Below, piece by piece: positions 24,592 through 26,275 of a stretch of 53,313 nt of DNA (positions are counted from its first letter, which is position 1; every line of letters begins with the position of its first letter). Source of the DNA: Bacteroidaceae bacterium (GTDB lineage Bacteria > Bacteroidota > Bacteroidia > Bacteroidales > Bacteroidaceae); contig JAFXGX010000070.1 in NCBI GenBank assembly GCA_017536695.1, positions 1 to 53,313 of the forward strand. The letters are read 5' to 3'. The notes under the pieces are model-generated. The model worked only from the letters and a program-made list of their open reading frames with translations, searched no databases and had not been told where the DNA came from. Made by a program: the position numbers and the translations under genes.

Positions 24592-24621
24592 TTTGAAGAG
24601 AGAATATTTTTACTAAATTTG
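24592..24621 (+). promoter_or_regulatory. Promoter for the RyR-domain operon
   Basis: TTTG at 24592-24595, 18 nt, TAAATTTG at 24614-24621. Predicted start near 24628, leaving a leader of about 35 nt. Confidence 0.7.
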
Positions 24622-24661: not shown

Positions 24662-25114
24662 ATGACTTACACACCAAGACCTATTGACCTGTCCGATGTT
24701 GAGTTGGAGAAGGATTTGAATGAATTACGTGAAGCGATAGCCGAGAATGCGCATGAAATCTGGGCTTCCAAAAGAATAGCCGAAGGCTGGAGCTTTGGTC
24801 CATGCAGGGATGACAAGAAGAAAGAGACTCCCGATCTGGTCGAATACTCCAGACTATCAGAGGGAGAGAAAGAGTATGACCGCCAAATGGCTATGGAAAC
24901 CCTGAAACTCATAAAGAAATTGGGATTCGACCTTATCAAGAGGGAAGAGACCCCGCTGTACAAGTCTCTGCTTGCCCGTATACGCAATGCAAATCAGACC
25001 CTTTATTGCCCGCACTGCCCGAAGGATGTAAAGACCCCAATATACTACAAACAGAAATTCTGCGATAAGTGCGGACATCTTATCGAGATAGATTGGTCAC
25101 TTTATAAACAATAA
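24662..25114 (+). CDS. RyR-domain protein with C-terminal zinc ribbon
   Basis: A 150-aa protein. Residues about 3-92 match the ryanodine-receptor repeat (RyR domain): YTPRPIDLSDVEL, AENAHEIWASKRIAEGW, SFGPCRDD, then LSEGEKEYDRQMAMETLK. Residues 116-137 (CPHC...CDKC) form a zinc-ribbon-like Cys4 site. No signal peptide or membrane segment is present, so it should be cytoplasmic. It sits 22 nt upstream of a PrsW protease that carries a second RyR domain, and the two domains are clearly paralogous. RyR domains are known outside eukaryotic calcium channels as stand-alone or fused bacterial modules, thought to bind a ligand or protein. Function here is inferred to be sensory or regulatory. Confidence 0.85.
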   Translation: MTYTPRPIDLSDVELEKDLNELREAIAENAHEIWASKRIAEGWSFGPCRDDKKKETPDLVEYSRLSEGEKEYDRQMAMETLKLIKKLGFDLIKREETPLYKSLLARIRNANQTLYCPHCPKDVKTPIYYKQKFCDKCGHLIEIDWSLYKQ

Positions 25115-25136
25115 ACCATTATAATAAGGAGGAATC

Positions 25137-26177
25137 ATGGTTTACCAGGTACTCATAGCAGCCCTTATTCCTGTAGTTATACTGTTGATATACATATACA
25201 GGGAAGACAAAAGATCGCCTGAGCCTGTATCGCAAATCATAAAGGCATTCTTTTACGGAATACTTTCCGTATTCATTTCGCTATGTATTTCACAGCCTCT
25301 TGAAGCTATCGGAGCCTACACTTCAGAGCATACCACAATAACCGAAGCTATTTCTCATTCATTCTTTGGTGCAGCAATACCCGAAGAAATAGCAAAGTTC
25401 ACCATGTTGTGGTTAGTAATGAAAAAGTGCAGCCACTTTGATGAGCGGCTTGACGGTATTGTATATGCAGTAAGCGTGTCTTTGGGCTTTGCGGCTCTGG
25501 AAAACATCTTGTATCTGTTTGACAATATCGACTCGTTCATCTCTGTAGGGATAACCCGCGGACTAATGTCCGTGCCCATGCACTTTTCATTCGGTGTACT
25601 TATGGGATACTTCTATTCTCTTGCAAAATTCGGAGACAACAGAAAGAGAGCATGGAACCTGGCGCTTGCATTATCGGCACCGGTTCTTGCGCATGGAATA
25701 TACGATGCCATCCTCATGGCCGCCGACACTATGGGCCAGGGCGAAGAAGCATTCAAAGGTTTTCTTGTCATCACAGCGATAGCATTCTGCGTATACTTGT
25801 GGAAAATGTGCCGCAGAAGAATCAAGGAGTTAAAAACAAAAGAGATAGAAGAACCTCTTATGGCAGCAGAAAGTATCATTGAGGCAGAGCCATACGCCCC
25901 GCAACCTGTTGACTGCAGTGACGTTTCACTGCCACAGGAACTATGCAACCTGCTCGAGGAGATGTCGGAGAACGTACACGAGGTATGGGCCCAAGGCCGC
26001 ATTGATGAGGGCTGGAGCTACGGCCCCAAGCGTGATGATGAGAAGAAAAAGCATCCATGTATTGTACCCTACGACAAGTTGTCGGAACAAGAGAAAGATT
26101 ATGACCGCAGGACAGCAGAAGGCACGCTCAAGTTCATCATGAAGAAAGGTTACAGGATAACAAAAAGCGAAGAATAA
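25137..26177 (+). CDS. PrsW-type intramembrane protease fused to a RyR domain
   Basis: A 346-aa membrane protein. The N-terminal ~225 residues have about eight hydrophobic segments with the PrsW (CPBP-like glutamic protease) motifs: PEEIAK (E83, E84, K87), LEN (E122), PMHFSFGVLMG (H149) and HGIYD (H186, D190). PrsW-type enzymes cleave membrane proteins such as anti-sigma factors. After a charged linker, residues 252-341 form a RyR domain (YAPQPVDCSDVSLP, ENVHEVWAQGRIDEGWSYGPKRDD, LSEQEKDYDRR), predicted cytoplasmic. A strong Shine-Dalgarno (AAGGAGG) precedes the ATG, unusual for this phylum. The fusion suggests proteolysis controlled through the RyR domain. It ends at a strong terminator. Confidence 0.85.
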   Translation: MVYQVLIAALIPVVILLIYIYREDKRSPEPVSQIIKAFFYGILSVFISLCISQPLEAIGAYTSEHTTITEAISHSFFGAAIPEEIAKFTMLWLVMKKCSHFDERLDGIVYAVSVSLGFAALENILYLFDNIDSFISVGITRGLMSVPMHFSFGVLMGYFYSLAKFGDNRKRAWNLALALSAPVLAHGIYDAILMAADTMGQGEEAFKGFLVITAIAFCVYLWKMCRRRIKELKTKEIEEPLMAAESIIEAEPYAPQPVDCSDVSLPQELCNLLEEMSENVHEVWAQGRIDEGWSYGPKRDDEKKKHPCIVPYDKLSEQEKDYDRRTAEGTLKFIMKKGYRITKSEE

Positions 26178-26226: not shown

Positions 26227-26275
26227 AAAAAAACAGTTGCAGAATATGCCTGAACGCATTCTGCAACTGTTTTTG
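26227..26275 (+). terminator. Terminator of the RyR operon
   Basis: AACAGTTGCAGAAT and ATTCTGCAACTGTT form a 14-bp stem, 12-nt loop, flanked by A- and T-runs. Confidence 0.9.

Follow-up and report, generated by a model that had tools for sequence, protein, structure and literature searches.

PrsW of Bacillus subtilis is the site-1 protease of RsiW and is not known to carry a ryanodine-receptor repeat (RyR) domain. In the CRISPR-associated CalpL/CalpT/CalpS system, a nucleotide-activated protease frees a sigma factor; the protease is a soluble Lon-type enzyme, the receptor is one for cA4, and neither PrsW nor RyR is known to take part. The locus described here lies on a 53-kb contig (JAFXGX010000070.1, 53,313 nucleotides; hereafter the window) of the Bacteroidaceae assembly G000 (2.63 Mb, 109 contigs) and comprises two adjacent genes, one encoding a RyR protein with a zinc-ribbon-like tail (gene 1) and the other a PrsW-family membrane protease fused to a RyR domain (gene 2). 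Gene 2 shares the PrsW fold and motifs with the B. subtilis enzyme, whereas its score against the PrsW equivalog NF033739 (156.6 bits) lies below the cut-off of 225 and no anti-sigma gene adjoins it. With CalpL/CalpT/CalpS it would share the principle that a nucleotide signal switches a protease. We favour, at a probability of roughly 55%, the reading that gene 2 is a membrane protease gated by a nucleotide of the adenine or ADP-ribose type, most likely the product of a TIR enzyme, that binds its cytosolic RyR domain.

Described RyR proteins provide further points of comparison. RyDEP, a RyR protein from phage, was shown in a May 2026 preprint (PMC13232231) to bind 2'/3' cyclic ADP-ribose (2'/3'cADPR) and to cleave it, for which it uses H75, W78, H100 and D117. 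Gene 2 and RyDEP both have a PF02026 domain with H/W/H/D residues at matching spacing, but RyDEP, as described there, is a phage protein that stands alone, is encoded in a NARP1 operon and does away with the signal, and gene 2 codes for a bacterial fusion with a membrane protease. A Bacteroides thetaiotaomicron RyR protein (PDB 3nrt, 6uag and others) has the same fold as the RyR domain of gene 2 and ~54–61% identity to it; it was crystallised as a lone domain of ~100 residues without a protease, and the PDB entry titles, which name no function, speak of dimers both open and closed. Repeat12 of the animal ryanodine receptors is ~38–48% identical to the RyR domains of genes 1 and 2 in close alignments (~40% between gene 2 and human RyR3), the difference being that the bacterial domains sit in two separate genes, one of them on a protease rather than a calcium channel.

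A membrane protease with the full set of RyDEP-type ligand residues

The fusion is made up as follows.

25137..26177, + strand: gene 2, 346 amino acids, PrsW-RyR fusion (open reading frame, Pfam)
25221..25781, + strand: PrsW protease domain of gene 2, with catalytic residues E83, E84, E122, H149, H186 and D190 (Pfam, alignments)
25893..26165, + strand: RyR domain of gene 2, with ligand residues H281, W284, H306 and D323, equivalent to H75, W78, H100 and D117 of RyDEP (alignment)

The sequence-only reading had described an intramembrane protease with intact motifs and RyR domains in both proteins, and profile searches bear this out. Gene 2 matches PrsW-protease (PF13367, cut-off 23.5 bits) with 131.3 bits over residues 29–215 and RyR (PF02026, cut-off 27.4 bits) with 122.4 bits over residues 253–343, and gene 1 matches the same RyR family with 113.8 bits over residues 3–91. 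Detection of RyR and conservation of the PrsW catalytic residues in homologues were the two points on which that reading had staked itself, and neither went against it. An alignment of 35 PrsW proteins shows no variation at E83, E84, E122, H149 and H186, with D190 outside the invariant list, and all six residues are invariant across the four fusions of alignment A1. AlphaFold models gene 2 with confidence (mean predicted local distance difference test score 95.7). Loop charges, read by the positive-inside rule, suggest that the RyR domain faces the cytosol.

Mycobacterium phage Baudelaire gp81 (L159:2390-2800), a protein annotated as hypothetical, is probably the orthologue of RyDEP; the residue numbers of the two agree, and the gene for gp81 sits between two NARP1-type genes. 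In alignment with gp81, gene 2 retains the complete RyDEP ligand set, and gene 1 retains three of the four residues, with Thr in place of H100. The proposal of a ligand-sensing domain attached to a membrane protease is backed, and it is the RyR domain of gene 2, not that of gene 1, that has the full set. Both catalytic residues of RyDEP, H75 and D117, are present in gene 2 as H281 and D323, and the domain could be imagined as a signal-ending enzyme that, like RyDEP, hydrolyses a cyclic nucleotide of TIR origin, with PrsW only an anchor or a separate activity. We regard this as very improbable, since RyDEP alone cleaved the signal among RyDEP and the eight homologues assayed in the preprint (PMC13232231), and the conserved protease active site would be left unexplained.

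RyR classes and fusion history

In a comparison of RyR proteins, all five distinct PrsW fusions are H-type, as are 29 of 31 stand-alone small RyR proteins (the exceptions being L047, N, and L093, T; the divergent L107 protein is uncounted). Ten distinct zinc-ribbon RyR proteins are T in nine cases and S in one, and C39-peptidase RyR proteins are T, N or H. In our own reading of the alignment, each tandem pair of animal RyR2 likewise joins an H-type repeat to one that is not H-type. A tree of 69 RyR domains groups the zinc-ribbon and C39 kinds together (100/100), separate from the small and PrsW-fused kinds, among which the PrsW-fused domains form no single group; the G021 domain pairs as sister (100/99) with a free-standing RyR from G027 that shares its gene order, before clp. 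The well-supported branches force two changes, which points to RyR and PrsW having fused more than once, or having fused and then split; either way, the two are recurrent partners. A single clade of RyR-fused PrsW proteins has a P value of 0.061 in the approximately unbiased test on the PrsW tree, whose backbone is weak. Among the 44 genomes searched in the genus, the full fusion occurs in three (G000, G041 and G021), and a fourth (G017) has PrsW and RyR as separate adjoining genes. RyR genes at L048 (G022) and L104 escaped the open reading frame calls.

The dimers in the B. thetaiotaomicron crystals, open and closed by their titles, the adjacent encoding of RyR proteins from differing clades and the RyR-like ends of RCK channel-like proteins (see below) could also be explained if RyR were chiefly a dimerisation or docking module that joins gene 1, gene 2 and such channels, its nucleotide binding lost or structural. 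All five distinct fusions, however, retain the ligand residues, which a pure scaffold could dispense with, and we give this explanation a small chance.

Linkage with TIR genes

The order-level sample comprised 393 genomes, 37 of them with RyR, and neighbourhoods were fetched in the 36 other than G000 for part of the matches. In 19 of these 37 genomes, a TIR_2 match occurs no more than 5 kb from RyR, compared with 0.27 expected under random placement (4 of 76 TIR and 2 of 54 RyR matches under the cut-off were left out). We reject mere defence-island clustering as the source of this linkage on the strength of a control family, Methylase_S (type I S-subunit), none of whose 102 matches lies within 15 kb of RyR, the nearest being at 15.8 kb.

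A second sample was built from contigs picked by PrsW patterns alone and holds 46 PrsW loci; the 39 whole genomes behind 41 of them were searched with three Pfam families, leaving out four TIR matches and one RyR match under the cut-off and counting one PrsW gene split into two pieces as one. RyR lies within 10 kb of 16 of the 46 PrsW genes, and 12 of these 16 also have TIR within 10 kb, versus 0 of the 30 others (P = 4.7e-8); at a 5-kb limit, TIR is near 8 of 13 RyR-linked PrsW genes versus 2 of 33 others (P = 1.7e-4), these values presupposing random placement in a sample that includes close kin. A home-made TIR profile gives 10 of 13 RyR-linked loci versus 1 of 28 unlinked, and is biased towards linkage, as its seeds come largely from RyR-linked loci. 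By Pfam, TIR neighbours are found at L108, L110, L112, L113, L138, L146 and in G426 (L093); at L113, double-TIR and Macro-TIR genes stand immediately 5' of the PrsW and RyR genes, and at L108 the end of the TIR gene is the start of a PrsW-RyR fusion. The PrsW and RyR genes of relatives accompany TIR, STAND and CHAT-type genes, which backs the earlier suggestion of a setting in conflict signalling.

The layout resembles that of Thoeris, a signal maker beside a receptor-effector, in that the TIR genes of relatives (some of them PF08937, ThsB_TIR) adjoin PrsW and RyR; it differs in that no SIR2-SLOG ThsA was noticed beside them and the window contig has no TIR. At L146:10001-10515, where the locus is rich in TIR, a PrsW gene that sequence error or decay has broken over two frames stands directly 5' of a gene for a small RyR protein, and at G463:C18:149734-170021 a PrsW gene lies near RyR with TIR genes around. 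No place among phages and plasmids matches at least 80% of gene 2, and among the matches listed for viral contigs there is one RyR-only relative and no PrsW fusion. Two unannotated human-gut phage scaffolds (L180:7052-7339 and L181:11052-11348) encode RyR domains 55–57% identical to that of gene 2, which are candidate phage sponges against such systems.

Several observations weigh against a protease switched by a TIR product. The top membrane match of gene 2 is APH-1, which is not known to be a protease itself. The main weakness is that the window's own sub-branch has no TIR partner close by. Four RyR-linked PrsW genes lack TIR, those of L106 (the window's orthologue, G041), L111 (G021), L107 and one locus of G450. 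The window contig has no TIR (TIR_2) match, the other two fusion loci of the genus, L106 and L111, have none within 10 kb, L107 is a 3-kb contig without one, and the RyR-PrsW pair of G450 (PrsW gene at G450:C11:57186-58175) has none within 10 kb. A signal would need a source outside the locus; six other contigs of G000 carry nine TIR matches between them. In the preprint (PMC13232231), six of eight RyDEP homologues bind and two of the eight, phage proteins, did not, and the assays concern phage proteins, not bacterial RyR domains. Finally, human RyR3 Repeat12 was crystallised with ATP, ADP or AMP-PCP according to PDB titles, and the ligand of gene 2 may for this reason be a common nucleotide.

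These last structures, the genus fusion loci without an adjoining TIR gene and the position of RyR genes before a clp-type gene in six genus loci (the window, L037, L039, L053, L055 and L056) would suit a sensor of energy or nucleotide stress, in which RyR reads the level of ATP/ADP/AMP or ADP-ribose and gene 2 is a housekeeping envelope or proteostasis protease unrelated to phages. We consider such a sensor unlikely, as RyR is enriched throughout the order beside TIR genes, and among PrsW genes it is the ones near RyR that have TIR close by.

The ligand, gating, dimer partner, substrate and biological role that we infer for gene 2 under the TIR-signal reading would be as follows. Gene 2 would be a seven-helix PrsW membrane protease with its cytosolic RyR domain as nucleotide receptor, and the ligand most likely a cyclic ADP-ribose isomer or a related product of a TIR enzyme. 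Binding would close a RyR dimer, formed by gene 2 with itself or with the RyR domain of gene 1, whose ligand site is incomplete, and closure would either start or stop the cleavage of a membrane substrate. An abortive or stress response may be the output, alongside or replacing the RyR-linked channels of relatives. An anti-sigma factor, the substrate that the sequence-only reading had suggested, finds no support, because no anti-sigma gene adjoins gene 2 and gene 1 is its only companion in the operon; the substrate may be encoded elsewhere.

Channel-like genes and other partners in relatives

In 30 of 36 genomes, by home-made profiles and our own reading, an RCK- or MscS-type gene is fused to RyR or stands no more than about five genes away; a few of the proteins so counted show no membrane helix. 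A separate count of RCK linkage is partly circular, the RCK proteins themselves carrying a RyR-like domain, and we base nothing on its P value. The C-terminal part of the RCK profile matches RyR with a probability of 97% in profile comparison, with H..W, H and D in register, and the profile weakly matches BK, DMI1, CASTOR and a TrkA-domain channel (E 4e-5 to 0.02). In G021 and G043, an RCK-type channel-like gene is followed by a zinc-ribbon RyR gene and then by PrsW.

The RCK channel-like proteins of alignment A2 (L040:7739-9901, L053:6754-9477 and relatives) have a C-terminal RyR-like domain, an invariant D, and a near-invariant PG roughly at the position of the BK selectivity filter; we take this region to resemble CASTOR/POLLUX-type filters. 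At L055:6539-9728, L099 and L105, RyR genes adjoin two others, one for an MscS-type channel and one for a soluble RCK/RyR-like protein, which may be the channel in split form. At G280:C80:6569-9157, an RCK-type gene is directly followed by a PrsW gene, with no RyR match on that contig.

G000 has a second, large RyR locus (L006:4161-19818, equal to C108:31160-46817 of its own genome). At its start (L006:4161-5829), a sigma factor gene of the extracytoplasmic function type (36.3 bits, below the cut-off of 42.9) overlaps a gene with a weak C39-like peptidase match followed by RyR; the N-terminus of the overlapped gene is, as we take it, anti-sigma-like in look, and the pair may possibly encode a nucleotide-released sigma factor. 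The locus also holds genes for a membrane RCK-like RyR protein, SIR2-TIR, an nSTAND ATPase, a small RyR protein, DUF697 and VWA proteins, and its counterpart in G041 (L047) has FGE-TIR and CHAT as the middle cassette instead.

Layout and regulatory signals of the locus

The remaining features of the locus are given below.

24592..24621, + strand: Bacteroidetes-type -33/-7 promoter match, TTTG-N18-TAAATTTG, ~40 bases 5' of gene 1 (pattern search)
24662..25114, + strand: gene 1, 150 amino acids, RyR domain and C-terminal zinc-ribbon-like tail (open reading frame, Pfam)
25126..25132, + strand: Shine-Dalgarno AAGGAGG 5' of gene 2 (sequence)
26229..26274, + strand: hairpin resembling a terminator, with a T-run, located 3' of gene 2 and before the clp-type gene (folding energy -24.3 kcal/mol, z -5.8)

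Both genes stand where the earlier reading had placed them, on the + strand with 22 bases between them, and the strong Shine-Dalgarno and the terminator that it had noted are likewise present. For its claim of an own promoter, the Bacteroidetes-type match speaks in favour (the pattern has 9 matches in the window versus 1.33 expected), and a sigma-70 scan found nothing at the start of gene 1. The zinc ribbon ascribed to gene 1 has its four cysteines, C116, C119, C134 and C137 (CxxC...CxxC), and scores below the Pfam zinc-ribbon cut-offs (best DZR, 18 bits versus 27.3); AlphaFold is moderately sure of the tail, with block means of 64–81 from residue 101 onward. The sole PADLOC match, of gene 1 to DrmB, was rejected as chance-level (E 0.018). 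The flanking genes are presumably sigma factor-like and Clp ATPase-like, and the closest named relative of the locus is L106, from a Bacteroidaceae metagenome-assembled genome of water deer rectum (90% identity).

There is reason to doubt that the two genes form a self-contained operon: their counterparts in relatives accompany RCK-type channel-like and/or TIR genes, both absent from the window contig. RCK relatives occur on other contigs of G000 (C108, C61 and C55), so that the channel partner may have been lost from the window or may act in trans.

Meaning for RyR domains

Nucleotide-activated proteases, TIR signalling and nucleotide-signal immunity with many effectors are already known, and a RyR-steered intramembrane protease is unreported in the literature searched. 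In the open-licence literature, we found no report pairing a RyR domain with PrsW, none, among the papers listed, of PrsW/RyR as a Thoeris-type effector-receptor, and nothing joining PrsW with CHAT, TIR or STAND, or bacterial RyR with TIR or NAD. Tentatively, and with somewhat less confidence than even odds, we suggest that RyR may be a bacterial receptor family for TIR-made ADP-ribose signals that feeds PrsW at this locus and C39-type peptidases and RCK/MscS-type channels at others; animal Repeat12 would in that case descend from, or be a cousin of, a receptor for immune signals already paired with bacterial channels, and the H-type/T-type pairs would be the counterpart of its tandem repeats. 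The linkage of TIR, RyR, PrsW and channel-like genes offers a testable bacterial host-side counterpart to the removal of TIR signals by phage RyR proteins, as presented in the preprint (PMC13232231). It also makes an old question testable, namely what role the RyR domain of the calcium-release channel had before animals, and whether cADPR-like molecules are read by it.
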